A stretch of 64,000 bases of DNA from Dermatophagoides farinae (taxonomy: Eukaryota; Arthropoda; Arachnida; Sarcoptiformes; Pyroglyphidae), in assembly GCF_024713945.1 (NCBI RefSeq), contig NC_134683.1, positions 1,602,501 through 1,666,500 of the forward strand, given 5' to 3'. Position numbers and translations under genes: made by a program. Under the pieces are notes generated by a model that saw only the letters and a list, made by a program, of their open reading frames with translations, was not told where the DNA came from and did no database searches. Of this stretch, positions 7,569-63,688 are shown in pieces (position 1 is the stretch's first letter; each line of letters begins with the position of its first letter).

Positions 7569-7619
7569 TGAAAAAAGAAAATTTCCATCATTATAAAGAA
7601 TATTCACCATGATACAATG

Positions 7620-7731
7620 ATTGATGAGTGCAAATTTTTTTGTAAAAAAGCAAAATCCATGGTGTATTCAACATGATTAATTCTATAAATTTATATTTAT
7701 TAATATGAAATAATGGACCACATGTGAAACA
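7620..7731 (-). pseudogene. C-terminal scrap of a GR-like gene
   Basis: On the minus strand from 7731 the sequence reads CFTCGPLFHINKYKFIELIM followed by LNTPWILLFYKKIC. This is the receptor family's C-terminal signature (compare GFTCGHMFHINKYKFTELI in copy C and FYKKIC at the end of copy F). Nothing receptor-like precedes it: upstream on the same strand is the 3' flank of copy D. It is therefore an orphan C-terminal fragment, probably left by unequal exchange between family members. Confidence 0.7.
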
Positions 7732-7779
7732 ATTTTTAACTTTTATTAAAATGATTATTTTTTTTGAATGAATGTTAAT

Positions 7780-8787: not shown

Positions 8788-8814
8788 GCAACGAAAAAAA
8801 AAATCTATTATTGC

Positions 8815-8882
8815 ATTGATTTGAATAAAAAATTTTTTTTTCTTAGATTTTAATATTGTTGATTATTCATTGTTATTACAAG
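8815..8882 (+). pseudogene. Relic of PTER intron 1 up to its acceptor
   Basis: ATTGATTTGAATAAAA, then TTGTTGATTATTCATTGTTA and TTACAAG match 12942-13007, i.e. intron 1 of the PTER gene from just after the donor to the AG acceptor. The PTER exon 2 sequence does not follow. Together with 7233-7285 it brackets the inverted copy D block. Confidence 0.7.
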
Positions 8883-11008: not shown

Positions 11009-11447
11009 TTGAAAATCGATTCTACTTTTGGTTGAATTCTACTTGCATTGTCAATATTGATATAGCATAATTTTCAACAACAGTACCATTATCTTTAATT
11101 TTAAATATAAAATTTAAATTGAATGTCATTAGAGTTTTATTTGAAAAAAAAACAAAATAAAATAAATTGCTGATTTTAGGCAATAACAATAAAAAAAAAA
11201 TCAGTTTTTTCATAGAAATGTCAAAAATCATATGAAATGAAACACCTTTTTATTTACGGTGAATTGGTGTGAATCGAATGCTATTCATTTATAACGTGTC
11301 ATATAATGACGTCAATACGTTTTAAGGTGAATTTGATAACATTGATGATTTTCATATTCCAGATTTTATTTTCGATTCAAAAATCCGAATAAAGTGGTTA
11401 GTATTGATATGGATTTGAATATATCAAGTAACTCGACATGATAAAAA
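11009..11447. other. Intergenic between GR copies E and F
   Basis: AT-rich sequence without a credible gene. No strong TATA box or repeat array seen; the 3' part serves as the upstream region of copy F. Confidence 0.6.
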
Positions 11448-26448: not shown

Positions 26449-28611
26449 TTAGGAAAATTTTTTGAATAAAAATCCAGAAATAATCAACAATATGATGGTG
26501 GAAATAATATTCAATGCAAGACCATTATAAACATTTGGATGTGTTATTGGCCATGAACGTAACATTACATTACGTAATGATTGTGATGGTATACCAATAG
26601 GACTGAAATCGACTAAATATTGAAAATTTTGTGGAACTAATTCACGTGGAAATATTGTACCACTGGTGAATACTTGTGAAAATGTTATGAATATTGAAAA
26701 CATTGTTGCTGTTGATCCTTCTTTCACTATAGATGATATTAATAATCCTAAAATTCCAAAAAAATAAATTAATAAAAATGAAAAAAAAGTGTACACAAAC
26801 ACAAACCAGTTGCAACTGAAGATAAAGCCTGTGCCATGACCATTGTGAATACAAGCCAAATTGGACCTTCATTAATCATTTCGAATAAAAATAATCCAAC
26901 ATATAACATTAATGTAACTTGAATGGCTGATGCAACAAAACTGGAAAAAAAATGTGATAATAAAACAAGATTATGGCTAACACCGGCCACTAATGAACGT
27001 TCAAATAATCCTTCACTACGTTCTTGTACTAAAAGTTGTGCTGATATTGTTAATTGTGAAAGATAAATGAATGCAATCAAATAACCAGGTAAAAGAAAAT
27101 CAGATAATTTTGAATCTTTTGCATAGATTATATCATGTAAATCTATTGGTGCTTCAAATCTGGTTAGATTTTGTTCTTGATGTACCATTGTAAGAAAATT
27201 ATATACAGTTTGTCGTAATGAATCAATAAAACCATTGGCAAATAAAAAATTTGAATTATCCATATGAATACGTATGATACTTGATAGATATGTTTCATTT
27301 GTCATTGAATCTGGATCATTAACACGTGTAATCATGGCATCGGTGAAATTTGAATCAAAAATCAATATGCCAACAATATGGCCATATTTCAATGCATTCA
27401 TTGCTTGTTCTTCATTATCATAATATTTTGGTTTCAAATAATAGATATCGACTTTTTCAATAAAATCAAATAAACGAACAGAATAATATGGATCTGGTTC
27501 ATTGTTACAAACACCAATGGGTATCTATAATGGTAAAAGAAAACAAAAAATTAGAATGATAAGCATGGTAAATTTCAATATACAAATAAAAAACAAATAC
27601 CGCAACTTCATCCACATCGTACATAAGACCAAGAATGAGAGCTTGAAATGCCGGTATCAAGAATATTAATGTAGTGATGTTTAGTTGAAAAAATCTGGAT
27701 AAATTTTTATGCACCAAAACAATCAGTATCCATAAATTGAGAATAATTTTAGACCAATTTGATGTTTGATACATGTTGGATGTTGATTCTTCCGGATTAA
27801 TAGTATCGATCGTTTTATGATTACCATTTTTGACGATAATTTCATCAATTTTATCAGTTTCATTATTATTATCATCGTTATCGATAATTTTTGGTTTTGG
27901 ATCATTATGACAAAGATAGAGAAAAACATCTTCTAATGTACGTTGTTCATAACGTTCTATCAATGCCATAGGATCATCTTCTTCAAGCATACGACCTTCA
28001 CGCATAATACCAACAATATGTGCACGTACAGCTTCTTCAATATAATGTGTTACAACAATAATGACAATATTATCTTGTTGACAAAGTAGATGCAGATATT
28101 TCCAAATATAATCACCCAATGTTGGATCACTACCAACTGTTGGTTCATCCAATATCATTAATTTTGGTCGCTGTAAAAATGTCACTGAAAGTGATACGAT
28201 TTTTTGTTGACCACCGGATAATTCTGAAATACGTTTATCATCATCGGGTAGGCCAAGAATTTTTTGCAGATTTTGTTTACGTACACGAAATTCTTTCCCC
28301 GTTAATCGATAAAGATTGGCAAAATATTGTAATGTTTGTCCAACGGTAAACGTACGACATAATGCCTGATCTTGTGGCATATAACCAACGATACGATTAT
28401 TTTGTCCGGGCAAACCACCTAGTACATGGATTTCACCGGAATTGGCTTCAATACGGCCAAGTATAAGTCGAAGTAAAGTGGTTTTACCGGCACCACTTGG
28501 TCCAAGTAGACTATATATTTTACCATATGGTACCTGAAGATTTATATCTTCCAATATTGGACGTTGTTTTGCGTAGTAAAAATTCACATTCGATAATTGT
28601 ACGGCTGTCAT
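26449..28611 (-). CDS. ABC transporter, subfamily H (ABCH half-transporter), 3 exons
   Basis: Exons 28611-27601, 27524-26807 and 26747-26449 join in frame to 675 residues. The N-terminal nucleotide-binding domain has Walker A GPSGAGKTT (37-45), Q-loop GYMPQDQ (~76-82), signature LSGGQQ (131-136), Walker B LMILDEP (151-157) and switch His in VVTHYIEEA (~188). The LSGGQQK, THYIEEA and LEDVFLYLC pattern and the NBD-then-TMD order match the arthropod ABCH subfamily rather than ABCG. Exons 2-3 encode an ABC2-type membrane domain with a large extracellular loop (~340-470) and about six spans. ABCH proteins act as homodimers; in insects some move lipids to the cuticle or confer resistance, and the mite substrate is unknown. 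Divergently arranged with Orai. Splice junctions: GCG|GTATTT to TTATAG|ATA, and ACTG|GTTTGT to TTTTAG|GA. Confidence 0.9.
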
Positions 28612-29206
28612 TGTTTTTTTTTTATTTTTTTTCCTTCAGTAAAACAACAATCGTTGTCAAAATGATGAATGATTGAATATCAAATTACCTGTGTTGATGT
28701 GGAATTAATCATTATTTTCGACAGCCAATTTTTTTTTCCTATAAGATGTGGTGCAAATTTTTTTTATATTCACACCATCAACAACAAACATACTGATGAT
28801 GATGATGACGAATGAATCAAATAATAATAGAAAAATTTTTTCAAGGAAATTTTGATCTTAAAAACTGTTAATAATAATATATCAAAGACATACTTGAACA
28901 TTTTTGTATTTTTCAGTTTTGACATTGAATATGTTCATTCAATTGGGTTGCGCGCCAAAATCACTATGGAAAATTCAAATTTAAATGACAAGAATCAAAT
29001 TCGTGATACGTTATCTATGACCGGTTCTATGTTGGTTCTGTTTTGGTTTTTTTTTCTGGTTGCAGAAAATAATCAAAACAAAATGACAAATTCATGTGTA
29101 TTATCATAAAAAAAGAAATGGGAAAAATTTTCATGATAAAATTAGAATGATTGATTAAAAATTTTTTCCCCCACCCAAATTCTAATCATCAAATTAATAT
29201 TGAATC
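28612..29206. promoter_or_regulatory. Divergent intergenic region between ABCH and Orai
   Basis: About 600 bp between the two start codons, A/T-rich with T-runs and a GAT repeat. A Kozak-like ATG at 28966 opens a 20-codon stretch (MENSNLNDKNQIRDTLSMT). It can splice in frame (ACCG|GTTCTA to TGTCAG|CAATTT) into Orai codon 3, so an alternative Orai first coding exon is possible. Confidence 0.4.
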
Positions 29207-40634: not shown

Positions 40635-41804
40635 ATGAAACCAAAGTTCATTTACATATTATGGCTACCATTATCATTATTATGGCTACTACTACTACTA
40701 CTACTATTACTGTTATCGATAATGCCATTTCCAGATGTTGTCTATGGATATCATATGAACAATAATAATGATCCAACAGGTGTCGTTGTTGATGATTTAA
40801 ATGTTGAATGTCCATTATCATATTTAATTGAATTGAAAACCGCTTCGAATCATCTATATTCAATCGATAAAACAACAACAACAACGAATATTACATATGT
40901 CAATCAAGATGCTGATATATATTTTACAGTATTTCTTCCTGCATTCGATTGTCGTCTGGATACAATACAGAAACGTGATTCATTAATATATTTAAATGCA
41001 ATAAAATATGCATTAAATCTATTAAATCATCACCAACCTAATGGTAACGGTCAACATTCAACGACAAGCGATGATAATAATCAAACAACGCCAATATCAT
41101 CATCATCATCATCATCATCGTCATCATCATTATCGATATTGAATCTATTTCCATTGTTCTCTTCGATAATGAACAATAGAAATGGACAAATGAATAAACA
41201 ACGAGTCACTTATGGTGCTAAAATCATTTTCATCAATAATAATAATGATAATAATGGCATTGTTGGTGGTGGCAACGGTCATCAACGACAGTCTTTTGAT
41301 CATGTTGAACATTTGGTATGTTTGTTGTTGTTCAATTTTTTTTTCTTTTGTTGTTAATTGCACGTGTTTCGTAAGAAATGAAATTTTTTTCAATTAACTA
41401 TTTTTTTTTCTATTTTCCTTTTTTTAAATCAAAATTTTTTTGCGAATTAATGAAAAATTTTGTATGTAGAAATGTGTACCAGTTAAAAAACAACAACAAT
41501 CTATTAATGATGATGTTGATGATGAACTAATGAGAATCAAAACGAAACAAACAATAGTACATGATTTAGCATTCATCGATGGTGCACAAATATTTGATAA
41601 GAACAATAAAGAAGCATTGGATAAACATATACCAATAATACCATTAACAACATCCGAATCAATTTTGACCGCACCATTTCGTGCCAGTTTAATCATCAAT
41701 CTGCTTGATATACTTGAATGGAAACATTTTTCCATAATCACTTCACGTAATGAAGATTCATTGTATATTGTAAGTATTGTGTGAAAATTTCACATGAACA
41801 TTTG

Positions 41805-41835
<31 letters not shown>

Positions 41836-44800
41836 TAATCATAATCGATTTTTCTTTGTCTATTAATAGGTCAAAATACTAGGTCAATTGACTCATAATG
41901 AACAAATTTGCATTAGCGATTTATTAGAATTGCCTACAATCAATAATGAATTAGATGAAACAATTATTTGGTCACAATTTGAACAACGTCTTTATACATT
42001 CATTAATGCTATATTTCATCCGGCCAAACGAATACCGATATTGGTCATATCAAGTGATCAAAATGAATTGATACGTATAACGGAATTATTGTCAAAAAAT
42101 TATGATAAACAGATACAAAATCATCAATTTTTTTTTACAATCATACCATCACCGGAACTATTGATTCGCCTGCAATATTTATCGCAATCAACCAAAGTAT
42201 TGACTTTAACATCGAAATTACCAGATGTACCACTATTGAAAGAGACAAAGGTTAGTTGGATTTTTTTCCTCGATTTTTTTTTGTTTCGTTTTGATGCAAT
42301 TACGTAATCAATAACTGATTGATTATGGTTTATTGTATTGAGTTTTTTTTATCAAATCGAATGTTTTAATTTTTTTTTCTTTTTATTTGATTACATAAAC
42401 GCACACACACACAGGATTGTTTCAATATTAATGACCAAAATTTCAATAATGACATCTGGAAAAATTGGCTTTCATTTTCACCAATACGTTATATTGTATT
42501 CATGTCAATTGCACTTAATCTAGCACGTAATGATATCTGTGTCAATAATAACAATACTGATCGAACGACAATCACTGATTTTTGGTGTGATGATCTTATC
42601 CAATTTGAACGGAAATTATTTTTCAATTATCTAAGCGATCTAGAAGATAAAGTTGAAATGCCTGTTATGAGTCTTAGTTCAATAGATAAATCGGGTCATT
42701 ATCAAGATTTATTATTATATAATGGAAATGAATTTAAATTTGTTGATGCTGATTATTCATTGGATCAAAGTAATTGTATTAATAATAATGATTGTCAATC
42801 ATGTATTAAATTTCGTCAATCACGTACACAAGCAATGTTGGATGATGATGATTTGGCTAGTAATACTAGTGATGATGAAGATGTAAATCATAATAATGAT
42901 AAAACTAGTCACGAAGATTTAAATCATAGACATCATCATCATCATCATCATCATAATCATCCGCAGACAAATTCTATATTAAATGATGAAAAAAATAATG
43001 TAGTGGCCACTAGCAACAATAATGAAGATGAAGAAATGGTACCGAATGAAGATGTATCAATGATGCATGTTGAAACATATGAAATTACACTTGGTCTATT
43101 ACTTCCTTTACATAAAATTGGTAGCTCTATATTGGATTGTTCATCGGAACTTAATTTACCTGCATATTATATTTATGAAGCATCCAAATGGATTGTTGAA
43201 AAAATCAATCAAAATAATTATCTTATACCGGGTATTGAAATAAAATTAGAATTAATCGATACTTGTTCATCACCATTCTATGCAACACAAGAATTAGCAC
43301 ATCTGACAAGTTCAGATGCAAAAGTTCAACCAATTGCATTCGTATCATCATTACCACGTGATCATTATAAACAAATTGTTGAATTTGTATCATCTATTAA
43401 TTATACATTGATTGCAACACAAGATATATCAATAATGGATTTTCCATTTGGTCCAAAACATGGTATACTTCAAACAGCAACAACAAGTCAATCGTTGATT
43501 AAAACAACCATTGAACAATTGAAATATTTTGGTTGGCGTTATGTATCCATAGTAATCGATCCAACTGATTTAGTTTCATCGTCAATGTATCATCATTTTC
43601 AAGAGATGGCTATACAGGAAAAAATTTGTTTCATATCAATAGAATTTGTTGATGGTAATGGTGGTAATACTACTGTCAATAAATTGATCGAAAATCATAA
43701 AAATGGAGCAAACATTGTCATTCTATTCACCAATTATGTGAATACAATAAATCTAATGCAATCATATCGATCATACAATAAATTCAACAACAATGAACGT
43801 AATTTTAATAACAATTTACATTTCATAATTGTACGTGATCAAAATCTTGAACTTGTTTATGGTTTTGAAGAAGAGTATTTGGGTTCTATTTTTATACGTG
43901 AATCGATTGGCAATATAAATCATTTTGACAATCATTTTTTGGATCTTGTTTCCAATCCATCATCATCATCATCATTATCATCATCAACGACATCGACTTC
44001 AACTTTATCATCGTCGAGAATAAAAGATAAATTGTTACATCAATTTATTAAACAATGTGGCGTGAATAGTCAACAATGTTTACGTACAATTTCATCGTTC
44101 GATAAAACGATCACGACAAATACAATGCAAGCAATTTTATCTATTGTTGGAGGTTTGTATTTATCTATAATTTTTTTTGTCGAAATCTTTACAATTTTCA
44201 TTCAAAAATTTAGTTTATTTTTATGCCTACCTTATTTTTTTTTTTGTTGATTGATCAATTTTTTTTATTTTTATTTTTTTCCCCGTTTTTTCAAATATAT
44301 CAACCACAACGACAATAACAACAATTGGTAACAAAAAAAAAAAAAAAAAGGTTTCGCACGAATGCGTAATCAAACCTGTGCAAATGAAAAAGGAATCTGT
44401 AATGAAATGCTTTACGCTGATTTTCATCGTAATCTTCTCAAATTTATTCTCAATACTCGTTCAATGCGTATCGATTCAGAGTTGGATAAAAAATTTAAAA
44501 GTGAAAATTTTGACATTTTCGAATTCGCTACCGATGGTTCATCGGCTAGAGATATAGAAATATTGAATTTTAAACATGATCATTCAAATGGATTTTTTCG
44601 TTTCGATAATGTTGCCTTGTATAATCATAATCAACAGGCATTGATGAAGAATCCAAATGTTCGTTATATATTCTATAAATTCAATGGTTTCATAAATGGA
44701 CATAAAGAATATAATGAAACTGAATTTATTGGTTCAGATTGTATAAATCTAAAGAAATGTATTCAATGTGAACCACAAAGTCCGGAATTTATTTATATGC

Positions 44801-46759
44801 CATCATGGGATAATCTAATTGTTAGCGGTATTTTCGATGTACACCAACATTCAACACAAAATCCATTCATATGTGAACGAAATGAAACGATATTCGATAA
44901 TATACAAAATGTTGAAGCATTCATTTGGACTATTGATTTAATTAATCAAGATACGAATATATTGCCCGGTGTACATCTTGGTACATTAATCTTTGACACT
45001 TGTTCATCATATCAGAAAATTTATCGTGATGTTTCAAATTTTCTAAGTAATTCTTTATTGCTTGGTGATTATAAAGTTCAGATACCAAATTCTGAATCAT
45101 TAGCCGGTTTTATTGTCGATGGTAGTACAACAAAAGTTATTGATTCAGTATTGGATCTAACAAAACCATTGAATATGTCTGTATTGGCAACCGATGCACG
45201 TGAAATCAAATATAATGATATTCGTCATTATCCACAATTTCTTGGGTTTTCATTGCCAAACAATATCTATGTTGATGCAATGATTAGTTTTTTGAAAAAA
45301 TATTCATGGACCTATGTTTCAGTATTATATGAAAATAATAATTTCGTCACCTATCGTCATGTGGATGCATTTTCATATTTTCAACATAAAGCACAACAAA
45401 ATGGTGTACAAATTGCAACAAAAGAAGCATTCAATGAGAATAATATTCCTAACACTATTAAGAATCTGAAATCATTTGCTCAAATTGGATCACGTTTAGT
45501 CATTGCATTTTTATCACCGGAAAATCTAAGAAAATTTCTTGAATTTAATGGTGAACAATTGGAAGAAAGTGGCCGATTACAATCACATGAAGTAATGTTT
45601 GTGACAATTGATTCACAAAATGTTCTCCAAGAATTTGCAAGACAACAACCAGAATCACAAACAATGATAAATGCTATTAGTTTAGGACCAGATGAACATA
45701 TTATTACGGAATTTGAAGAATATTTTTTCGATTTATCCATACAAAATAATCAAAAAAATCCATGGTTTGTACAATATTGGGAAAAAGTGAACAATTGTAA
45801 AGGTTATAATTGTAATAAGATTCAAACAAATTTAAGAAAGAAAAATATAACGATAAGTTCACGTACTACAAATATAATACATTCGGTTGTAGCCATAGCA
45901 CATGGCCTAGAATATCTTCGAAGAAAACTTTGTCCTGATAGCTATAGTGGCCTGTGTCCAGAATTTCATCAACATATTCGACAAGATTCACAAATGATTT
46001 ATAATTTTATCAAACAAAATGGATTCATCAGTCTTGATGGTAGTCAATTTCGTTTCACACCAAAATCCAATTATCTTGTTGGAAATTTAAATATATTTCA
46101 TCTGCAACGACATCATAATATGCTCATGTGGAACGAAATTGGCCGTTTCGATTATGAGAACGGTTTACAAATGGGAAAAATGAAAATAAAATTCAATGCA
46201 ATTAACGGTACAACCGTATCATTTTCGAAATTAATTTCCTTGTGTCAGAATTCATACGAATGTGCAGCATTAAAAGAGATGAATCAAGTGAATCAAACAT
46301 TATTACCATTGTTACCAATGAAATTAGCGCAGGCAACAATTGCATTATTCATACCATTACATGATATAGAAAGATCATCAAATGGCGTGAATCGTACCTG
46401 TGGCCACATTAATCCAGGTAATAACCCATTAACGATTTTATTATTATTTTTTTCAATTTAATTTTATTATTTTATTCATAGATGTATTTGAAAAATTTAT
46501 GGCCATCTACTATTCACTTGATCACATAAACAATCAACTTCAACAGCAGCAGCAACAACAACAACAACAACGACAATTGTCCTCAAATGAACTTCCAACT
46601 TCAAATTTAAATATTCTTTTACTTGATCTTTGTACATTGAATGAAGAAAAATTGACTACCATTTTGTCTGATTATAATTTTACGCCCAAAGTTGTTGCCG
46701 TACTTAGTCTAGCTGGTGAACAAAATTTGATGATCAATGGTAATAGAAATGGCAACGGA

Positions 46760-46790
<31 letters not shown>

Positions 46791-49466
46791 TTGTTCATCA
46801 ACTTGGCCAACGTTTTAAGAACCAGTTTTTGAATCTTCTTGGTGATTATAATCCTTTTGTCTATAGTTTCCATCAATCATCGAAGAATGAGAAGCAAAAT
46901 TTTTTCTTTACAAACAATGAAAATAATGTGGCTGAGCTTGATATGAAAAAAAATCATCAAATGTTAACATCACGTTTGATTATTGATCTTTGTGTACGAA
47001 TGAAATGGACGACAATCAATATAGTCTATTCAAATGAATTTGTTAGAAATTATTTTCAATTTGAAGCAAATAAAATGAATATTTGTGTGGATAAAACCAT
47101 ACAGATTACCATAAAAGATATTGGAAGGCCATTATTTGCCAACGAATGGCAATCATTCACACAGACATTCGATACAAACATCATAATTCTATTGACCAAT
47201 ACGGATATCAATGAATTTCTTATCAAATATTCACCTAAATATATTCTAGATCGTTATATATGGATTGGTGATAAATATCTAAAAACAGCGGCAACAAATT
47301 CATTGAAAAATTATCGAAAAAGTGTTGAATATGCTATCGTTTTGAAACGTTATCAAAAAGATCATTCAATTGATCAAGAAATGACCATGGCATTAGATGA
47401 TTTATCGAAATATTTTAATATCAATCATAAACGAGTAGGAAATAAAATGATCAATAAATGGCTACATGAATATTGGCAAAGAAAATTTCATTGTTCACCG
47501 TATACACAGAAACATGATTCAAAATGTTTTGATAGTAAATATGCCCGTAAAGCAATGTTGAATATCAAAGATATTAAACGATTAATGGATTTTGGTAAAA
47601 CATTGAGTACATCGATAACAAAATTCGTGGCCAATAAATGTCTAAATGTGACCACAAATCAACAGCAGCAGCAGCAGCAGCCACAGCAGCAACAACAACA
47701 ACAACAACAACAGTTCGATGAACTTTGTCTATACAATTTTCATCTACGAAATGAACTAAAACAAAATATAATCGAAGATCTAAGCAATAATAATTATTAT
47801 CTAAATGATTATAAACAAATCAATATAGATAATCATTATGAAGTTGAAATTTTATCAAATCAGGCCAAAACAATCAACCTTTTTAATTCATTAAATTGGC
47901 CAAATATTTCGGATTTTTTGGCCACACACATTAATGGCCGTAGCCATGTTATCAAATGTCGTATGAGCTGTAACTATTGTACGTTACAATTATCACAAAG
48001 TAAAAATAAAAGTGTTAATATGTTATTTTCTGGTTAGTATTATCATAATGATTCTGGAGATTTTCATTCTATAATTTTTATTCATTTCACATTAGATACA
48101 TTACAATCATCATTGATCAGTGAAAATAATCTTTATCGAACATGGTACATTGTTCTTTCGATCTTGTCTACGTTAGGCATCATCATGGTTTTGATTTGTG
48201 TTCTATATTTTATTCTTATATTTCCCGTTGCATTGGGCACAACCATTATTGGCTATCAGATTCTTGTTGGATTATTTTTTTGTTTTTTGATTAATTTTGC
48301 CTATTTACTTCCAATCACTCATACAGTGTGCTGGGTTCGTCAATTTGGTATGTATACATTTGAAAAATTTAAATTTTTTTGACTAATTTTCCCTTACTAA
48401 ATATAATAGGTCTACCATTTGCATATTGTATTGTATTGAGTGGATTTTTTGTTAAATCCTATAATTATTGGTGCCAGATTCTATTGAAAAAATCCACCAC
48501 AACACTACGATATAATACACCATTTGCGCAGATTTCCATATCATTGGTTTTTGTCATCATGCAATTAATATTAACATTAATCACTATGCATCAATTACAA
48601 ATTGGTCCTGCTTTTGATATGCTATCCACTCGTTGTACATTTATCGATATGAATCGTTTTGTTCTATCACAACCACAATTCATATTACCATTAACATTAT
48701 TGATTATATTATTCGGTTTTATCATGTTTTTTACGATAAAAACTTTTAATAATCAAGAATCCAGATGGATTTTTGTTTGTAGCTTTATAACTGCTTTAAT
48801 ATGGATTGGATGGCTTACAACAATCACATTACGTATGTGTTTATTATTAATTATTATATGTAAAAGTTTTAAAATTCGAAATCTAATCATCAATTTCATT
48901 ATAGATTTACATGAAAAATTCATCTTAACAATTGTGGCCAATTTGACCAATGCATTCATCATCATTGTATTTCTATATATTCGAAAATTGTATCTATTTT
49001 CCAAGATATCTCGAAAGATTCTCAAAGAACGACGTATGAATATGGAGGTGACATTGCAGGGTGAACCATTTGCCGATAGTCGTCAACAGTATGGTGGTAA
49101 GTGAATTTAGAATTTTTTTTTATTCAATAATTTCAATATTTTGTTTTACTATTTACAGCATTCAAAACCTGTACTGATCACATCTCCTGGAGTAATGTAC
49201 ATAATCGAATCAATTTTCGACAGGCAACAAGATCTCCATTCGAAGGTGACCAAGAAGATAATATTAGTTCATGTGGATCGGTTAAATCGACCAGTTCATC
49301 ACAGGTACAATGTCAAGAATTATATCCAATGGAAGTGTATGATAATCAACAGCTAAATAGCAGTAGCAGTAGTAGTAGTGGTGTATCATCATCGAGTAGA
49401 GAATCTAAAATAACACAATCAACTCGTTCAATATATGATCTGATTGATGATGAAAATATGAAATGA
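40635..49466 (+). CDS. Giant class C GPCR with four tandem Venus-flytrap modules, 10 exons
   Basis: Exons 40635-41315, 41470-41769, 41870-42250, 42415-44152, 44351-46417, 46482-48032, 48096-48347, 48410-48832, 48905-49096 and 49159-49466 join in frame to 2,630 residues. A signal peptide (1-39, Leu-rich) leads into four modules, ~58-585, ~675-1172, ~1186-1672 and ~1692-2222. Modules 2-4 open with a strand like LGLLLPLH, and each module has a W-x-x-(V/F/I)-(S/N)-(I/V) second-lobe start (LEWKHFSII, FGWRYVSIV, YSWTYVSVL, MKWTTINIV). Modules 2 and 3 keep the mGluR-like DTCSS. Each module ends in a Cys cluster (e.g. CINNNDCQSC, CINLKKCIQC). Residues ~2245-2500 form a class C 7-TM domain (FGLPFAYCIVLSGFFVKSY, RWIFVCSFITALIWIGW, NAFIIIVFLYIRKLY), with the TM3/ECL2 cysteines in THTVCW and STRCTF. 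The tail is Ser-rich. Acidic/His, poly-Q and poly-N linkers separate parts. Ligand unknown. Confidence 0.85.
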
Positions 49467-52492: not shown

Positions 52493-55400
52493 ATGAATGA
52501 TATTTGCTACATTTCTTATGATCCGTTTTCGATTCCGGATCAAATGAATGAATCGACTACCATACGACATAATGGATATCTATTGAAAAATGTAACGGAA
52601 CCATTGATATTTAATCTAAAATCATTGTTCAACATTGATCTCAACGGTCAAGATCATCATCATCATCATCGATCTGATATTAATCTCAACTTTTTACGTA
52701 TCATTCTGTGCTTTCATCATGAAGCTAGTTTAATAGGATTTTTATCAATTTTTTTCATTCAACAATTCATTTCATTTGTAATCAATTGTTTTGGCGTCAA
52801 AATTCATCAGTCAAAAATTGATTATTCATCCAATCATAATGATAATGATAATAAATTTAATCATCAATATGATCAGAATAGAAATTCAATAATTGTCAGT
52901 GATTATAGATCAACAAAATTTGCCACACATGATTCATATCAAACAACTAGATATTATAGAATTAAAAAAGTGAGTCTTTTTCAATTTAAACAAACAAAAA
53001 AATGAAAAATAAAAACTCATTCAATTTGCAATCAGATCATATCCGGAATAATTGTCTTTACATATTTGGTGGAAATTTCCATAATTTTATCTCTATATAA
53101 ATATGATGTTTTCGGTGAAGCATTGCCATATTTTTGTTCAAATTTCTTGTCATTAGTTTGTACGGTAAGTTTTCTTCAATGTTTTCAATAATTTTGAATT
53201 TTCATTTTCTTTTCTTTGTTTTAATAGCTATTTGCAATCTATTATATGTTCGTTAATCCATCGGTAAATCGACAAAGACAAAAATTCATTTGCTTTTATT
53301 GGCTCATATCAATGTTGAATTTCGTATGGAATATTATTTCATTATACATTCACATAGATAGTGATGGATATTCTATATGGAAAATTTGTTCAACATGTCA
53401 TTGGCAATCATCAGAATTTTTATTTGATAAACATCAATTATCGTCGTATGATAAAGATTTCCATAATCAGATCATTATATCCAATCACAGTGATGATGAT
53501 CATGATTTTCGTTACAAAACCAGCATTATCTGGATGCATTTCAATTATTTTTATGCAATACTATTTACGTTACAATTTTTTTGTTGTTATTTACCCGATT
53601 TTGAACCAATTGTTTCCGTACATCCAGAATCGAATGCAACATTGATTGGTCGAACAATTTATATATGGATGAGCCATACAATTTTCTGTGGTTATCGTCG
53701 ACCATTAACTTTTGAAGATATATTTCCAACATCCATACCTGTTGAACATGTGGAAAGCTATTTCTATCGTTGGCTTATTCAACAATCAAATAAATATTCA
53801 AAATCATTTAAATTGATCAGAATTTTAATCTATCAATTTGGTGGTGAATTTATTCGAATTTCATTCATTAAATTGATACCAACATTGACTACGTTTATTG
53901 GTCCATTATTATTAGATCGTTTGATCAAATTTACTACTACTACTACTACTAATACATCATCGATAATCGATAATGAACAACCACAATGGCATGGATATTT
54001 CTATGTAATCGCTATGTTCATTTTGTTTGTGAATGAATCAATATTGAATTCTTATTCTGATTATCAACTAATGATATTGGCATTAAAAATACGTTCATGT
54101 TTAACGGCTTCTATTTATAGACGTTTACTTTTGTCGAAAAATATCGGCAATATGACAATGAATACAAATTTAAAACGGAAACAAACTTTAAATACATCTG
54201 GACAAATTGTTAATCTTATGTCAACTGATACACAACGTATTTTTGAATATGTTAAGAATGTCAATCTATTCTGGATTTGTCCACTTCAAATTACCATTGC
54301 TATATTTATGTTATGGCAACTACTTGGATATGCATCATTAGCTGGATTGGCCGTATTATTACTATTGTTACCATTTAATATGTTTATTGGAGCTCGAATA
54401 CGATCATTACAATCAAAATTACTTGAATATAAAGATCGAAGAATTAAATCATTGACCGAAACATTGAATGGAATAAGAGCAATAAAACTGTATGCATGGG
54501 AAGATTTTTTCCATAAACGAATCGATCAATCAAGACAATTAGAATATTTAAATCTTCGTCATCAAGCATTGTATTCGACTGCCATTTCATTTGCATTCAC
54601 ATCGGCACCATTTTTCGTTGCATTATCCAGTTTTTCATTGTTTCTATACATTAATGCAAATACGGTTAATGAAAATTTAGATGCCCAGAAAGCATTCGTA
54701 TCATTAGCCATATTCAATATAATTCGACGTCCAGTAGCCTTTATACCACAATTAATCACTAATTCGATGATGTTTTTAGTTTCATTGAAACGCATCAGTG
54801 ATTTTATCAATGATAACAATGATGTCAATACAATTCAACTACCAAAAAATAATAATAATAAACAATATCAGATAGCGATATCATCAGTGACCAATAGCGT
54901 CAAAACTTGTCCACAAATTCGGTTACAAAATTGTCAATTTTCTTGGTCTCAACATATTGGATCATCATCATTTCGATTGAATAATATTGATGTTAATATT
55001 AATCGACCACAATTATGTGCGATAGTTGGTTTAATTGGTGCGGGTAAATCATCATTATTGGCAGCCATTTTAGGCCAGATGAATTTGAAGCCCAATGATT
55101 TCTATCGAAGTATGTGTCATATTCAAGGAAGAATTGCATATGTTCCACAGAATTCTTGGATTCAATCTGGAACCATTCGTGACAATATCCTATTTGGAAA
55201 TGAATTCGATCCAATCCGATATTGGAAAGTTATTGATGCCTGTGCATTGTTGGAGGATATTAAACAAATGATTGATGGTGATAAAACATTGATTGGTGAA
55301 AAAGGTGATAATCTAAGTGGTGGTCAACGGCAACGAATTTCGTTAGCACGAGCTGTTTATTCAGATGCTGATCTTTATCTACTTGATGATCCATTATCGG

Positions 55401-57913
55401 CACTTGATTCACAAGTTTCTCGTCATGTATTTCGACGTGTTATTAGTAATCGTGGATTATTGGCAAACAAAATCCGATTGTTTACTACACATAATATGGC
55501 TTTGTTACCAAATGTTGATCATATTGTTCTCATGGAAAAAGGTTCAATCGTTGCACAAGGAAACTATCAGGATTTGATCAACATGGACAATGAATTTACT
55601 GAATTTCTAACTACTTATTTCTCATCAATAACTAAAGATATTAGACATTCAACAAATGAAACTATCTATGATGATGATGATGATGATTATGGTAATAGTT
55701 TGATAGTCGATGAAGAAGAAAATTATAATATTCTCGTTGAAATGGCTCAACGATTAGAGCGACAATTTGCTTCATTTACACGACGTGGTAGTGTGATGAA
55801 AAGAATTTCGTTATCTAAAAATCATTTGATTGAAAAAGCAGACAAAAATAATAATAATAAAAAGAAAAGAAAAAATATTTTTAAAAATTTTTCAAAAATT
55901 ACCCCGAAAAAAGAATTGGAATTGAAAACAGATTACAGTGAAACCAAAGCTAGTACTGGTTCAATATCGTTGAAAATTTATTGGTATTACATTCGAACTA
56001 TTGGATTATTGCCTTTGGCATTGATATTATCAAGCTATACATTTGGATACTGTTTTGTTGTATTGACCAATGTTTGGCTAAGTTCGTGGAGTAATGATTC
56101 TAAAATACCATCATCATCATCATCATCGAATAGCTCAATAATAATTGAAGATAATTTATGGATGAATAATCTATTGATTCGATTACGATTAATTGATCCA
56201 TTAGAATCTATTAACCAATGGACACGATTGAATGTTTATGCAATACTTGGTTTTGGACAAACGATATTCATTTTGATTGCCACTTTATTACTACAATTAG
56301 CTTGTCTTCGTGGATCACAACGATTACATCGGTCAATGTTATATCGATTAATGCATGCACCGATATGGTTTTTTGATCAAGCAAATTCTGGCCAAATATT
56401 GAATCGTTTTAACAAAGATATTGATCTAGCCGATACGACATTGATATCATCACTTAGATTATTTATGATTGAAATATTTCGTGCATGTGCATTATTCACC
56501 ATCATTGTTACCGGAACTGATTCACCAATTTTAATTGGAATATTTTTACCACTAATCATTTGTTATATTCTCATCTATAAATATTATGTTTCAACATCAC
56601 GTCAATTGATGCGTATTGAGTCAACATTACGAACGCCGATTTATCAACAATTCAATGAAACATATACAGGTGTAACCGTTATACAGGCATTTGGACGTGT
56701 AGAAATGTTTCTTAGAAAAATCTACAAAAACATTGATATGAATACTAGTGCAATGCATATGAGTATTGCTGCTGCAAAATGGCTTACCGTTCGATTAGAA
56801 TGTCTTGGTAATATTGTTGTTTTGATTACATCATTAAGTTGTGTACTGCTTCGTGGTCATATTTCACCTGGTATGGTTGGTCTTTGTATCACCAGTTCAT
56901 TGTCCATAACTGGTACGTTGAATTTTCTTCTACAATCATCCATTGAATTGGAAAACAATGTCGTAACAGTTGAAAGATTGGTTGAATATACCAATCTACC
57001 ACAAGAAGATGATTGGCATCATCATAAACAAAGTGACATGACCGAAACAATAACAAAGAGGAAAAATTTCTTCAATTTTATTAAAAATTTTCTCCATAAG
57101 AAATTGTTTCGAAATTTTCTGATTTCAGAAATTGTTGCCGATACAATGCCAACCGGTGTAGTTTTTTGTTCCAGTAGTCAAACTAATCAAAATCATTGGC
57201 CAACGGATGGTTCAATTTCATTTTTTCAATATTCAGCACGATATCAAAATTCTTCGACATTGTGTTTGAAACAGCTGAATCTGTATATTCCATCCGGAAC
57301 GAAAGTCGGCATAGTTGGCCGTACAGGTGCTGGTAAATCATCATTTGCATTGGCTTTATTTCGATTGATCGATGCTGAAACCGGTGCTATACGTATTTCA
57401 AATAGAAATATTCATGAAATTGATCTACATGAATTACGATCAACATTGACGATAATTCCACAGGAACCATTATTGTTTGCTGGAACACTACGTAATAATC
57501 TTGATCCATTCAATCAATATACGGACGAACAAATAATCATTGCATTGAAAAAAGCTAATCTTGGCCATATGATCACAATGTTAGATCAATCGATTGATCA
57601 ACAATTAAATCGTTTATCATTTGGACAGAAACAATTACTTTGTTTATCACGTGCATTATTACGAAAATCTCAAATTCTTGTATTGGATGAAGCTACAGCT
57701 GGTATTGATCCGGCTACCGATAAATTAGTACAGGAAACCATACATCATGAATTTGTCCATTGTACAGTGTTGACTATTGCACATCGTTTGAAAACAATTC
57801 TATCATATGATCAAATCCTAGTGCTTGATCAAGGACAAATCGTTGAATTTGATACACCAAAATCATTGATGTCTGATTCATCAACATTTTTCTATAAAAT
57901 GATTGCACAATAA
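52493..57913 (+). CDS. ABC transporter subfamily C (MRP-like, long form), 3 exons
   Basis: Exons 52493-52969, 53036-53164 and 53228-57913 join in frame to 1,763 residues, longer than typical ~1,500-residue MRPs. An N-terminal membrane region (TMD0-like, ~75-330) precedes TMD1. NBD1 has Walker A GLIGAGKSS (~803), signature LSGGQRQ (~898) and Walker B LYLLDDPLSALD, with the Asp in place of catalytic Glu that is usual for ABCC. A long acidic and Lys-rich linker leads to TMD2. NBD2 has Walker A GRTGAGKSS (~1566), signature LSFGQKQL (~1664) instead of the usual LSVGQRQL, and Walker B ILVLDEATAGID with catalytic Glu. ABCC proteins export glutathione, glucuronide and drug conjugates; a SUR-like role cannot be excluded. 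It ends only 126 bp from the convergent CBM14 gene. Confidence 0.93.
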
Positions 57914-58039: not shown

Positions 58040-58387
58040 TTAATGTTTTGGCTTAGCTGTTGTGCCCAATACAAAATGTCCAGCGGATTTACAATCTTTT
58101 ATTGTTTTATCAAAAAATAATGTACCTGGACAATCGAGCAAAAATGGTACAAAATTATCACAAAGATAATATTTTTTTGGATCAATACGACATGCAAAAC
58201 GTCCATGTTGTGCAGGACAAAGAAAACGTGGATGACTTGGTTGATTATGATGTGGTGTAGTTGCTGAATGTTGATCACCACCACCACCACCACCACCACA
58301 TTGTACGGATGGCTGTTGTTCAATCAATTGGATGATCACCATGAAACCAATAATGGTCCATATAATTTGACGAAATGAATTGTACAT
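58040..58387 (-). CDS. Small secreted CBM14 (peritrophin-A) protein
   Basis: A frame open from 58552 contains an internal ATG at 58387 that starts a good signal peptide (MYNSFRQIIWTIIGFMVIIQ…, cleavage likely before or near the Gly run), so 58387 is chosen: 115 residues. After a Gly7 run and a His/Pro linker comes a single chitin-binding domain with six cysteines (FLCPAQHGRFACRIDPKKYY, LCDNF, LDCPGTLFF, KDC). Its spacing and aromatic residues fit CBM14. It is a shorter cousin of the neighbouring group-23-like allergen and probably binds chitin in the peritrophic matrix or cuticle. The 55 residues upstream of the chosen start look like leader sequence. Confidence 0.82.
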   Translation of the reverse strand: MYNSFRQIIWTIIGFMVIIQLIEQQPSVQCGGGGGGGDQHSATTPHHNQPSHPRFLCPAQHGRFACRIDPKKYYLCDNFVPFLLDCPGTLFFDKTIKDCKSAGHFVLGTTAKPKH

Positions 58388-58793
58388 TTTTTCGATGAAA
58401 CGAAAATTTTTCTGTTCACTTGTTTTTTTTACTGTAAATTCAAAAATAGTCAGAAGAGAATGGAATTTGATTTGATCTATGCATTCGATTCGATTGTTTG
58501 CAGTCGATTTAAATAGGCTGCAAAGAAAATTTTCATCGATTCCTTTTCTCATTTGGTGATTTATAACTTTTATATAATCAAAATACTTATGTGATTGACA
58601 TTTTTATTTTTATTTTTTTTATTTTGTAAATATTTGTATTTTGATTGATCAATTACATAGGTAGATTAGGGATATTAGCATACAAAATGTGTAAAAGAAT
58701 TTATATATATAAAAAAAAATCAAATTTATGATTATTATGAAAAATGACATTTTTAGACAACTACAATCATCATTGTGGACAATATTACAATTA
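58388..58793. other. Intergenic region upstream of the small CBM14 gene
   Basis: Short A/T-rich spacer between two minus-strand CBM14 genes. It contains the candidate TATA box at 58567-58576 and a (TA)n stretch near 58700. Confidence 0.6.
58567..58576 (-). promoter_or_regulatory. Candidate TATA box of the small CBM14 gene
   Basis: TATATAAAAG on the minus strand, ~180 bp upstream of the chosen start codon. Confidence 0.4.
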
Positions 58794-59423
58794 TTATGTA
58801 CATGTTAATTCTTTTTCATTCCATCTTGTATTACCTGGACAACTTTTATGTATAGCTTCCCAATTTGAACAAATATAAAATTTACATGGATCTTTCGGAT
58901 CGGCAAAATAACCAAATCTTGTTGGACATTCAAATTCATCTTCTGGTTGTTCAGTAGTAGTAGTAGTAGTTGTTGGAGATGGTTTTACCGTTGTTGTAGT
59001 TGGTTTTACCGTTGTTGGAGATGGTTTTACCGTTGTTGTAGTTGGTTTTACCGTTGTTGTAGTTGGTTTTACCGTTGTTGTAGTTAGTTTTACCGTTGTT
59101 GGAGATGGTTTTACCGTTGTTGTAGTTGGTTTTACCGTTGTTGTAGTTGGTTTTACCGTTGTTGTAGTTAGTTTTACCGTTGTTGGAGATGGTTTTACCG
59201 TTGTTGTAGTTGGTTTTACCGTTGATTGAGATTCTGATGTTGTTGGCATGGAACTCGGTTGTACTGTCGTAGTTGAAACATCATCAATCATGGTGTTTCG
59301 ATCATCATCAGATTTAGATGTGGAACTATTCTGATCATCATTATCGAAATGATCAATATTAGCATATGATGAATGAATCAAAATGGCCAATGAAACAAAA
59401 GCGATAGTTATGTTGAATTTCAT
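58794..59423 (-). CDS. Der f 23: Group 23 dust-mite allergen-like peritrophin with expanded Thr/Pro linker
   Basis: Single-exon gene of 209 residues. The signal peptide MKFNITIAFVSLAILIHSSY is followed by an acidic/Ser region, then twelve 7-residue units (KPTTTTV, KPSPTTV, KLTTTTV), then EQPEDEFE and one CBM14 domain (CPTRFGYFADP, FYICSNWEAIHKSCPGNTRW) ending in TCT. The signal peptide and C-terminal domain closely resemble the group 23 major allergen described from Dermatophagoides, whose D. pteronyssinus form is about 90 residues; the long repeat linker makes this form much larger. The linker is a likely O-glycosylation site. Expected role: a peritrophic-membrane protein coating faecal pellets. 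An extra Cys (DPCKFY) in the domain is worth checking. A TATA box lies ~105 bp upstream. Confidence 0.9.
   Translation of the reverse strand: MKFNITIAFVSLAILIHSSYANIDHFDNDDQNSSTSKSDDDRNTMIDDVSTTTVQPSSMPTTSESQSTVKPTTTTVKPSPTTVKLTTTTVKPTTTTVKPTTTTVKPSPTTVKLTTTTVKPTTTTVKPTTTTVKPSPTTVKPTTTTVKPSPTTTTTTTEQPEDEFECPTRFGYFADPKDPCKFYICSNWEAIHKSCPGNTRWNEKELTCT
58972..59223 (-). repeat. Coding 21-bp minisatellite in the group-23-like gene
   Basis: Twelve in-frame 21-bp units encoding K(P/L)(T/S)(T/P)TTV. A higher-order period of four units (84 bp) is visible: P-T, P-SP, L-T, P-T. Confidence 0.9.
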
Positions 59424-59785
59424 TTTTAAAATGGTTATGAGAATATTGATATTTTGGTGTCAACGTTGGATTTTTTTTTTTTTTTTTTGATTAATGATTT
59501 GTATTGATCAATGGAAATCAATATCATTTATATACTATTCAATTATGGTGACATCGATTAATCAATTGATTGATCCATGATTGTTTGCGTCAATATGCTA
59601 TCAATAGCACATCTCTAATCTACGCATCACAAATCTACACACAAAGATAGACATAATCAATTGTATCATCACTTTTTTTTAGTTTTAAACAACAATAAAA
59701 AAAATAGAAATTTAATAGCAAAAAAAAATATTTCAATGATAAGATAACAATAACTTTTTATATGATTTCATTTTGTTTTCTTGGA
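59424..59785. other. Intergenic region between the allergen-like gene and the seven-domain peritrophin
   Basis: A/T-rich spacer carrying the allergen-like gene's promoter and the 3' flank of the larger peritrophin gene. No other feature was seen. Confidence 0.6.
59527..59534 (-). promoter_or_regulatory. TATA box of the group-23-like gene
   Basis: TATATAAA on the minus strand about 105 bp upstream of the start codon, leaving a short leader of ~75 nt. This is a classic spacing for a highly expressed gene. Confidence 0.5.
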
Positions 59786-61688
59786 TTATGGTCGAACACA
59801 ATCAGTTAAATGATCGCAATTCAAAATTGCCTGATTCCATTGAGTGCCATTAGCACATGTCTTTTCATAGGCAATTCCGTTACCACATTGGTAAAACATC
59901 CAACAATTTTCATGTGGATAATATCCATTGGATTCAGGACATTCAAATTGATTATGAGAAGTTGTTGTTGTTTCATTCTCAGTAGTTGTTTCCGTATCTT
60001 GATCATCATCATCATTATTATTATCATCGGAGATAGTTGTCAAATCGATTTCGGTTGTTATTTCTACCGTAGTCGTTTCTTCTTCATTTTCATTGTTTGA
60101 TGTTGTCGTTTCTTCTTCATTTTCATTGTTTGATGTTGTCGTTTCATTGTCTTGTACATCGTTGGTTGTTGTCTCATCCATATCGGGTCGTACACAATCA
60201 GTCAAATGGTCACAGGTTAAAATTGTCTGATTCCATTGAGTGCCTTTTGGACACGTCATTTCATAGGCAATTCCGTTACCACATTGGTAGAACATCCAAC
60301 AATTTTCATGTTCATAATATCCAGATGGTTCAGGGCATTGAAAACCGCCTTCAGTGGTTGTTTCCGATTCCGTGCTGGATTCCATGGTTGTAGTTTCATC
60401 ATCGTTGTCGTTATCATTAGATGTTGTCGATTCTTGTTCTGTTGTCGATTCCACAGTCGTAGTTTCATCATCGTTGTCGTTATCATTAGATGTTGTCGTT
60501 TCTTGTTCTGTTCGATTCAATGGTTGTAGTTTCGTTGTCGTTATCATTAGATGTTGTCGTTTCTTGTTCTGTTGTCGATTCAATGGTTGTAGTTTCTTCG
60601 TCATTCGAATCGGTTGTTGTTTCATCCATATCGGGTCGTACACAATCAGTCAAATGGTCGCAGGTTAAAATTGTCTGATTCCATTGAGTGCCTTTTGGGC
60701 ATGTCATTTCATAAGCAATGCCATTTCCACATTGGTAGAACATCCAACAATTTTCATGTTCATAATATCCAGATGGTTCAGGGCATTGAAAACCACCTTC
60801 AGTGGTTGTTTCCGATTCTGTGCTGGATTCAATGGTTGTAGTTTCATCATCGTTGTCGTTATCATTAGATGTCGTGGTTTCTTGTTCTGTTGTCGATTCC
60901 ACAGTCGTGGTTTCATCGTCATAGTCGTTAGAAGTGGTTGTTTCTTGTTCTGTTGTCGATTCCATAGTTGTAGTTTCATCATCGTTGTCGTTATCATTAG
61001 ATGTTGTTGTTTCTTGTTCTGTTGTTGATTCAATGGTTGTAGTTTCTTCGTCATTCGAATCGGTTGTTGTTTCATCCATATCGGGTCGTACACAATCAGT
61101 CAAATGGTCGCAGGTTAAAATTGTCTGATTCCATTGAGTGCCTTTTGGGCACGTCATTTCATAAGCAATGCCATTTCCACATTGGTAGAACATCCAACAA
61201 TTTTCATGTTCATAATATCCAGATGGTTCAGGGCATTGAAAACCACCTTTAGTGGTTGTTTCCGATTCTGTGCTGGATTCAATGGTTGTAGTTTCATCAT
61301 CGTTGTCGTTATCATTAAATGTCGTGGTTTCTTGTTCTGTTGTCGATTCCACAGTCGTGGTTTCATCATCGTTGTTGTTATCATTAGATGTCGTGGTTTC
61401 TTGTTCTGTTGTCGATTCCACAGTCGTAGTTTCATCATCGTTGTCGTTATCATTAGATGTCGTTTCTTGTTCTGTTGTCGATTCCATAGTTGTGGTTTCG
61501 TTGACATCATCATCATCGTTTGATGTTGTCGATTCTTGTTCGGTAGTTGATTCTATTGTTGTAGTTTCATTATCATCATCATCATCATCGTTATTCGATG
61601 TTGTTGACTCAATGGTTGTGGTTTCTTTGTCGTCTTCATTGTTTGAAGTTGTCGATTCTTGTACGGTAGTTGATTTCATTGTTGTAGT

Positions 61689-61720
<32 letters not shown>

Positions 61721-62741
61721 TCGATGTGGTTGACTTAATGGTCGTGGATCTAATTGTGGTAGGAGTTGATGTAGTGGGCATTGTAGTTGTTGTTTGATTA
61801 TGATTCGATGTTGTTGTAGTTCCACCGATATCAGGTCGTTCACAATCACTCAAATGATCGCAAGTCAAAATTGCCTGATTCCATTGAGTTCCTTTTGGAC
61901 AAACCATTTCATATCCGATTCCATTACCACATTGATAGAACATCCAACAATTTTCATGTGGAAAATACCCAGCTGGTTCTGGACAACTGTATCCTAATGC
62001 TGGTCTTGGACAATCGTATATTGGAACACAATCTTGTTGATTTTCATCGAATTGTGTACTTTTTGGACATGTCATTTCAATGGCATTCCATTGTGTGCAT
62101 TGATAGTATTTATAACATTCTTTATGTTTAAATCGGCCATTTGCTTTCGGACATTCAAAACGAGAATTATCTGATTTACGGGTTGTAGTTGAAGCTCGTG
62201 TTGTTGTCGTTGTTTGCCTTAGGGTCGTTGTCGGAGCCCGAGTTGTTGTTGTTGGTCGACGGGTTGTAGTTGTTGGTCGACTTGTTGTGGTTGTTGGTCT
62301 TAGGGTCGTTGTCGGAGCCCGTGTTGTTGTTGTTGGCTTTAAGGTCGTTGTCGGAGCCCGAGTTGTTGTTGTTGGTCGACGGGTTGTGGTTGTTGGTCGA
62401 CTGGTTGTGGTTGTTGGTCGACGGGTTGTGGTTGTTGGTCGACTGGTTGTGGTTGTTGGACGACGGGTTGTGGTTGTTGGTCTTCGAGTAGTTGTCGGAA
62501 AAAACGATGGTCGTTCACAATCGGTGAGCCATCGACAAGTAAGAATTCGTTGATCCCATTGTGTAAACGGTGGACAAGTGATTACATGCGGTGTATACCA
62601 TGAACATTGATAAAATTGCCAACAATTTTCATGTTCATAATAACCAAATGGTTGTGGACATTTAAATTTACCAGCATCAACATCATTCGGTACGAATGAA
62701 ACAATGATTATGATGATGGATAAAGCTATGATTGCTTTCAT
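59786..62741 (-). CDS. Mucin-like peritrophin with seven CBM14 domains (frame broken by 2-bp deletion)
   Basis: The start is the ATG at 62741 (signal peptide MKAIIALSIIIIIVSFVPND); the frame runs further upstream only to a TTG. Five CBM14 domains follow: KFKCPQPFGYYEHENCWQFY, RFECPKANGRFKHKECYKYY, GYSCPEPAGYFPHENCWMFY, and two GFQCPEPSGYYEHENCWMFY. The frame then hits a TAA at 60486-60488 because, near 60511, one repeat unit has TCGAACAGAAC where its sisters have TCGACAACAGAAC (2 bp missing). In the shifted frame two further intact CBM14 domains continue to the TAA at 59786-59788. Linkers are Thr-rich (TTTRRP units N-terminally, ETTTxESTTEQE units later), i.e. mucin-like. Expected role: cross-linking chitin in the peritrophic matrix. 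The break may be an assembly error in a repeat, a real truncating allele, or a recent mutation. Confidence 0.82.
60541..61440 (-). repeat. Two ~450-bp tandem units, each a CBM14 domain plus linker
   Basis: 60541-60990 and 60991-61440 are nearly identical at a 450-bp offset, each coding one CBM14 domain and ETTT/EST linkers. A third, less exact unit lies at ~60100-60540 with a 448-bp offset, which reflects the frame-breaking deletion. Confidence 0.85.
62200..62505 (-). repeat. Coding TTTRRP/TTTSRP repeat
   Basis: In-frame units of 21 bp encoding (T)TTT(R/S)RP with APTTTLRP variants, in the linker between the first and second CBM14 domains. The repeat also creates meaningless open frames on the plus strand. 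Confidence 0.85.
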
Positions 62742-63688
62742 CCTTTTTTTCGAATGATTAATTAACAATTACAAAAAAGCTGATTAATTTGTCGATTTAT
62801 TTTTGGAATTATGATTAAAAACTTAATTAGTAATGATGATATGGTTACAAATTTTTTCGGTCATTTTTATATTAAAAAAAAATTAAAATCCAGAAAAAAA
62901 AACAACAACAACAACAAAAGACAATGAATTACATCGAAATTAATTATTATCCCATTGATGCATTTGTGATGTAATTTATTATTTTATGATCCATATATTT
63001 TTTTTTGTTTTGCATCTTGTTATAATCCATAAATGGATGTTTTTTTCCGTTGACAATCGTTGCAAACAATTGATAATGAATTTCATTTGAAATTTGTAAG
63101 CCATTAAAATGTAATACAACAACAACAACAACAACAATTAGCGAACCACATAGTTTATTCACGTGGTTTTTTTTTGTTTCTGGTTTTTAATCGATTACTA
63201 TTTTTGAAAAACGGGTGAAAAACAGGTTTGTACCCTGTTTTTTTTTGTCAGCAGAAAAAAATGCCATAAATTATTAAATCATTCATACCAAAATTGGTCA
63301 TAAATAGATCAAAATTTTTGATCATGACATTTGTCCATAATCCAATACAATTACCGCATACAAACGGATCATATCGTGTATAGATTATATGCGAAACCGA
63401 CATGTCCGTAATGTTTTACGTTTGATAATTATGACAAAACGGTTTGTATGATAACAAATGATTTTCAGTTGTTGATTGCAAAAAATGGATTGCACTCATT
63501 TTTTTTTGTTATTTTATTTTTATTACACTAAAAAAAACGGTACTCATTATTATTTTCAAGAGGATTAATCTAGAATTTTTATTATCACGTGAAAACATAA
63601 TGCCATGATATCATTATAATTGATTTATTATTGTGACCAAGTAAAAAAAAAAATAAAACTTGTTGATAATAATGGTAATAAAAATTGA
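62742..63688. other. Intergenic region between the peritrophin and adenosine kinase genes
   Basis: A/T-rich with an (ACA)n run at ~63119-63136 and several T-runs. It holds the peritrophin promoter and the 3' flank of adenosine kinase. No coding gene recognised. Confidence 0.6.
62864..62871 (-). promoter_or_regulatory. Candidate TATA box of the seven-domain peritrophin
   Basis: TATAAAAA on the minus strand about 123 bp upstream of the start codon, similar spacing to the neighbouring allergen-like gene. Confidence 0.4.

Follow-up and report, generated by a model that had tools for sequence, protein, structure and literature searches.

Organization of the receptor gene

The window (the whole stretch of 64,000 nucleotides that was analysed; G+C 0.29) contains, at 40635-49466 of the forward strand, a gene of 10 exons that splices into a single open frame of 7,893 nt. 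The encoded chain has a class C 7TM domain (PF00003) with PF01094 flytrap sequence N-terminal to it, as in class C GPCRs. The features of the gene, including the four extracellular modules named here V1 to V4, are as follows.

40635..49466, + strand: complete coding sequence in 10 exons (2,630 codons and the stop)
40635-41315, 41470-41769, 41870-42250, 42415-44152 and 44351-46417, + strand: exons 1-5 of the splice model
46482-48032, 48096-48347, 48410-48832, 48905-49096 and 49159-49466, + strand: exons 6-10 of the splice model
40635..40754, + strand: putative signal peptide region, aa 1-40, with a hydrophobic segment at aa 3-39; assigned from hydropathy only
40899..42813, + strand: module V1, aa 89-587, exons 1-4; a probable flytrap, diverged, into which poly-Ser and Asn-rich stretches are inserted
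42814..43068, + strand: V1-V2 linker, aa 588-672; acidic, His-rich and of low complexity, read from the sequence
43069..44775, + strand: module V2, aa 673-1175, exons 4-5; assigned by Pfam, the mGlu3 match and hhalign
44785..46281, + strand: module V3, aa 1179-1677, lying entirely in exon 5; the flytrap with the highest conservation
46312..47986, + strand: module V4, aa 1688-2224, beginning in exon 5 and continuing in exon 6; with inserts of poly-Gln and poly-Asn
48137..48987, + strand: class C 7TM domain (PF00003), aa 2254-2492, exons 7-9
49159..49466, + strand: exon 10 of the splice model, with the bulk of the Ser-rich cytoplasmic tail and the stop

All nine introns have GT-AG ends, junctions 1-3 being in phase 0 and junctions 4-9 in phase 1. 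When the sequence was spliced again, the ten-exon join, the intron ends, the consistent frame and the phases given in the original prediction were all reproduced. The introns are short (62-198 bases) and poorer in G+C than the exons (0.14-0.28 vs 0.29-0.35), and the longest stop-free run in the region of the gene extends over 709 codons, compared with at most 233 in 300 dinucleotide shuffles. The least typical acceptor of the gene is that of intron 4, which has a run of A before its AG. Between the AG that ends at 44213 and this acceptor at 44350 lie 135 bases without a further AG, and V2 is aligned to the mGluR profile without a gap over junction 4/5. Separate adjacent genes were considered and rejected on the intron sizes and on the position of junctions inside modules; they are unlikely, since a single exon, exon 5, contains the end of V2, the whole of V3 and the start of V4. 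Exons 5 and 6 (44351-48032) are symmetric (phase 1-1), and skipping of exon 6 would leave three flytraps and the start of a fourth.

The borders of exons and modules differ, V1 being spread over exons 1-4. With the module boundaries that we set, V1, V2, V3 and V4 are 499, 503, 499 and 537 residues long, and the predicted order, with a signal peptide followed by four modules of about 500 residues and a single class C 7TM domain, is supported, least firmly for module 1. The hydropathy scan reveals one signal-peptide-like segment (aa 3-39) and the 7TM block from about aa 2251, with no convincing transmembrane segment between them; the hydropathy peak of the ectodomain (1.57) is located at aa 1683-1701, just before and at the start of V4. 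The linkers vary from 85 residues (V1-V2) to 3 (V2-V3) and 10 (V3-V4), and about 30 residues separate the last cysteine of V4 from the 7TM match. There are 20 N-glycosylation sequons in the chain, of which 17 lie before the 7TM domain. The NCD3G cysteine-rich domain (CRD), in turn, has no Pfam match anywhere in the chain at E up to 10. V1 and V2 end with the pattern C-x5-C-x2-C, V4 with C-x3-C-x2-C and V3 with C-x5-C, and these endings could have been left over from the beginning of the mGluR cysteine-rich domain. The V1-V2 linker (42814-43068) contains eight consecutive His and several acidic runs, which could be metal-binding or simply of low complexity.

Identity of the extracellular modules

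Searched as a whole, the chain matches PF01094 with E 6.5e-46, in four stretches when E values up to 10 are allowed, and only the best of them, V3, is placed on the chain; beyond these and one PF00003 match, Pfam gives nothing else credible. The expected four PF01094 hits and one PF00003 hit were thus nominally obtained on the whole chain. Module by module, three modules have a PF01094 match, that of V1 lies below the cut-off, and V4 has none. The match of V3 (aa 1177-1681; E 7.7e-28) and that of V2 (aa 657-1176; E 1.4e-12) exceed the cut-off. V1 (aa 54-600) reaches 23.4 bits against a cut-off of 25.4 (E 3.7e-5), and its trimmed core (aa 254-533) 25.2 bits (E 1e-5). V4 alone (aa 1679-2251) gives no PF01094 match, and neither does its trimmed core. 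Among solved structures in the PDB, the best match of both V3 (E 5.8e-29) and V2 (E 1e-10) is mGlu3. For V4, mGlu3 appears with E 0.081, ranked under a poly-Gln match, and the alignment is in register, including the motif N-x-W-[FL]-x-[DE]-[FY]-W. No relevant PDB match was found for V1.

Further comparisons were made with a mGluR profile built from mGlu3 and four mGluRs of the same genome, which had been stitched from phmmer-matched exon pieces, with sequence of the window excluded. The modules score 151.3 (V3), 65.3 (V2), 29.6 (V4) and 13.4 bits (V1) on this profile. Not one of the 4,000 shuffles of each module (2,000 block and 2,000 full) reaches the score of its module, the highest shuffle giving 11.9 bits and the maxima for V1 and V4 being 9.5 and 11.4 bits, although not every shuffle received a score from HMMER (e.g., 1,204 of the 2,000 block shuffles of V1). 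Fifty other open reading frames of the window (at least 100 aa) score -0.4 bits or less. When V2 and V3 were added to the profile, V4 scored 20.0 bits (shuffle maximum 9.6) and V1 10.6 bits (9.9). In hhalign against five mGluRs, the probabilities are 99.9% for V3, 98.5% for V2, 96.5% for V4 (E 8.2e-10) and 2.9% for V1; all modules exceed their own 100 shuffles, V1 barely (25.9 vs 24.8). By these sequence comparisons, the assignment of V2 and V3 as mGluR-like Venus flytraps is secure, that of V4 as a flytrap is well supported, and V1 is a probable flytrap.

Compared with one another, V2 and V3 give 27-28 bits, which none of 1,000 shuffles reaches, and V1 and V3 give 4.4-4.8 bits, reached by 5-6 of 1,000. 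All remaining pairs score below 0 and are matched by 119-974 of 1,000 shuffles. Since V1 and V4 have no clear pairwise similarity to other modules, internal duplication is supported only through the common relation to mGluRs, and since the pairwise comparison recovers V2-V3 only, the order of duplications cannot be read from it.

Ligand pocket and 7TM domain

The modules also differ in what they keep of the mGluR flytrap. Out of 75 columns that are invariant in mGlu3 and in mGluRs A, B and E of the same genome, V3 keeps 36, V2 25, V4 20 and V1 19 in the MAFFT alignment, and 35, 27, 11 and 8, respectively, by hmmalign, these counts being given without a chance baseline. mGluR D, whose stitched sequence lacks the first part of the flytrap, keeps 53 of the 75.

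The residues that we take to be the glutamate contacts of mGlu3 are R64, R68, S149, S151, A172, S173, T174, Y222, D301 and K389. According to hmmalign, V3 has two of the ten identical (S149 and D301) and three conservatively replaced (S151 to T, Y222 to F and K389 to R). V1, V2 and V4 have no identical contact, with 9, 3 and 3 positions, respectively, unaligned. Single contact positions are uncertain because, for some modules, the MAFFT alignment disagrees at D301 and K389, setting a K of V1 at K389 and a Q of V3 at D301. The pocket is partially lost in ordinary mGluRs of the same genome as well, as judged from the same alignments: A keeps 10 of the ten contacts, B 6, D 5 and E 5, the stitched B and D missing 1 and 2 of the ten positions, respectively. 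All four of these mGluRs have S151, T174, Y222 and D301, of which V3 keeps only D301. The glutamate pocket of the receptor is largely lost.

The 7TM domain matches PF00003 over positions 5-251 of the 251 in the profile (E 7.5e-16; 59 bits, cut-off 33.5), and its best PDB match is mGlu2 (E 6.8e-8). Of 64 positions that do not vary among mGlu2 and the genome's four mGluRs, it keeps 19; in the leave-one-out control, each omitted mGluR keeps 64 of 65-80 invariant positions. The domain retains the TM3-ECL2 cysteine pair and the W of TM6, and has altered motifs in the first loop, at the end of TM3 and in TM7, the mGluR cytoplasmic motifs KASGREL of the first loop, TKTNR and the P of PKLY being absent. 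Since these motifs are missing and so few invariant positions are kept, coupling to a G protein is uncertain.

Relatives in the same genome

The size of the 62.4 Mb assembly (22 contigs), its CBM_14 genes and the low G+C would fit an astigmatid mite. It contains 46 PF01094 matches, which grouping by strand and 10 kb reduces to 26 loci. Tandem PF01094 occurs at one of these 26 Pfam-visible loci, that of the receptor described here. Weak tandem modules at other loci could be missed, because V1 and V4 themselves are not among the 46 matches. In each of the mGluR-type genes A, B, D and E there are one flytrap, NCD3G and pieces of the 7TM, NCD3G being over the curated cut-off in A, D and E and below it in B. 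A search of the genome with exons 4, 5, 6 and 8 found no close paralogue. All five weaker matches of exon 5 lie, by coordinates, within the mGluR-type loci A, B and E; the second-best match of exon 6 (E 5.4e-6) is poly-Gln; and exon 4 has weak matches, the best with E 2.3e-4. The receptor may be lineage-specific, as exons 4, 5, 6 and 8 have no close copy in their own genome.

An intron ancestry shared with mGluRs was also considered. The intron between exons 7 and 8 (at 48347) is at most 2 nt from an intron in the 7TM region of mGluR A (L003, about position 5998), but the phases, compared by eye, are different (1 vs 0, respectively), and it was not counted as a shared intron.

Proposed mechanism and alternative explanations

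The gene structure, the open frame, the order of domains, the absence of the CRD and the loss of most glutamate contacts are established. The simplest reading is that of a mGluR-derived gene, the ectodomain of which was multiplied and is without the CRD, the product being read as a fast-evolving, multi-flytrap class C receptor with module 3 as the likeliest sensor. In the explanation that we prefer, to which we assign a probability of roughly 0.5, a single-chain class C GPCR has arisen from mGluRs by multiplication of the flytrap to four and loss of the CRD, V3 would be a sensor of something other than glutamate, and V1, V2 and V4 would form a stalk. It is proposed that the receptor forms dimers or multimers and that its ectodomain is long and stacked. 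A small ligand would be bound by module 3, which alone is mGluR-like along its whole length, and modules 1, 2 and 4 would serve mainly as a rigid, glycosylated dimer or adhesion stalk. As V3 is not adjacent to the membrane, its signal would have to cross V4: closure of module 3 would be passed to module 4 and, via the short Cys-containing linker, directly to the 7TM domain, as in the CRD-less GABA-B receptors. The position of V1, below the Pfam cut-off and weak in hhalign, counts against this explanation, and the two contacts of ten kept by V3 count against its being a ligand sensor. That the four-flytrap array constitutes one allosteric relay, running from the distal module 3 through module 4 to the CRD-less 7TM domain and representing a new architecture, is rather less likely than not and is put forward tentatively.

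The receptor could also be a scaffold or adhesion protein, none of its flytraps binding a signalling ligand, with the chain serving as a long arm for cell contact or as the obligate partner of a signalling class C subunit. Pocket residues are mostly gone from all four modules, the three mGluR motifs of the 7TM domain are missing, and long low-complexity inserts accompany the 85-residue acidic, His-containing linker, all as such a role would have it. We consider it unlikely, however, in view of the mGluR-like character of V3 over its length, the identical S149 and D301, the conservative replacements at three further contacts, and the retained cysteine pair and TM6 W.

The original prediction proposed that four modules on one chain could integrate several ligands, i.e., that several modules each bind a ligand of their own and together determine the output. 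The presence of several flytraps in the chain, V2-V4 being well supported, is consistent with this idea, but no positive sequence support for it emerged: V1, V2 and V4 have no identical glutamate contact in the profile alignment (ligands of other kinds being possible), V3 has two, and V1 and V4 carry large inserts. Integration in this sense seems improbable, and three modules acting as a stalk or dimer scaffold would fit as well.

It is decidedly improbable that module 1 lacks, or has lost, the character of a flytrap and that the receptor has three flytraps. Such a count would agree with the Pfam score below cut-off, the 2.9% in hhalign and the lack of a relevant PDB match. On the other side, Pfam gives V1 E values from 1e-5 to 3.7e-5 with profile positions 106-306 covered, its 13.4 bits on the mGluR profile exceed the shuffle maximum, its length equals that of V3 (with our boundaries), and it shares its C-x5-C-x2-C ending with V2. 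Finally, an artefact of the gene model, in which at least two adjacent genes, or isoforms starting within exon 5, were joined on paper, would find room in the weakly hydrophobic, Met-containing stretch just ahead of V4 (aa 1677-1703) and in the preserved frame after skipping of the symmetric exons 5 and 6, but it is highly improbable given that intergenic space is absent (introns of 62-198 bases), that V2 and V4 need splices 4/5 and 5/6, which fall inside them, that there is a single strong signal-peptide-like segment, and that no 7TM lies between the modules.

Comparison with known receptors

In the textbook picture of class C receptors, a flytrap moves a 7TM domain through a dimer, and the usual descriptions give each chain one flytrap. 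A natural chain in which four flytraps are combined with a diverged 7TM domain and the CRD is missing would make it possible to test how much extension the flytrap-to-7TM relay tolerates, and whether additional flytraps can turn structural. The nearest relatives are mGluRs, given the best PDB matches (mGlu3 for V2 and V3, mGlu2 for 7TM) and the combination of PF01094 with PF00003. The receptor differs from the mGluRs proper, which have one flytrap per chain, NCD3G and the glutamate-contact residues: it has four flytraps and no NCD3G, and has lost most of the contacts and many 7TM motifs. GABA-B receptors also carry one flytrap per chain. The best sequence matches of the receptor are mGluRs, and no GABA-B chain is present among its PDB matches (all 30 for 7TM, all 26 for V4, the best 60 of 93 for V3 and the best 60 of 81 for V2), so by the best matches of V2, V3 and 7TM it would not belong to the GABA-B subfamily. 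It resembles GABA-B receptors in the joining of flytrap to 7TM without a cysteine-rich domain, as described in PMC12716839, where ANF+NCD3G, ANF alone and Cache+EGF are given as the main metazoan architectures.

Full-text literature searches listed no tandem-flytrap class C GPCR; databases beyond these searches may contain two-flytrap gene models. No tandem flytraps in a GPCR are reported in the consulted passages of PMC9138782, PMC12193088, PMC3863949, PMC6027212, PMC8174306 and PMC3703292. Flytraps have been reused in other signalling proteins. Venus kinase receptors of invertebrates are reported to have a flytrap related to PF01094 (PMC3703292), but their output is a tyrosine kinase and they have a single transmembrane segment (PMC4026697). 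Most Trypanosoma receptor-type adenylate cyclases have two N-terminal flytrap domains, the role of which is described as unknown in PMC6027212. Compared by description, they differ from the receptor in the cyclase output, the one transmembrane segment and the number of modules, two. The flytraps of the bacterial proteins EvgS and CdgH belong to another family. The likeness to these is an analogy only: two tandem periplasmic flytraps per signalling chain, as stated in PMC8174306 (EvgS) and PMC5431781 (CdgH), are combined with unrelated output domains.

Neighbourhood of the gene

Four hydrophobic open reading frames of 437-467 aa are located at 1530-12758 (+) of the window, with a shorter relative at 7780-8862 (-), and their C-terminal ends are alike by eye. 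Three of them, searched against Pfam at E 0.001, gave no match; the group has the look of multi-TM proteins of chemoreceptor type that have expanded locally. The receptor gene is flanked by ABC transporter genes at 27508-28635 (-) and 53228-57910 (+), the open frame of the downstream one being 1,561 codons long. At 58043-62768 (-) there are CBM_14 chitin-binding proteins (two open reading frames tested), one of which has five matched stretches with Thr-rich repeats between them.
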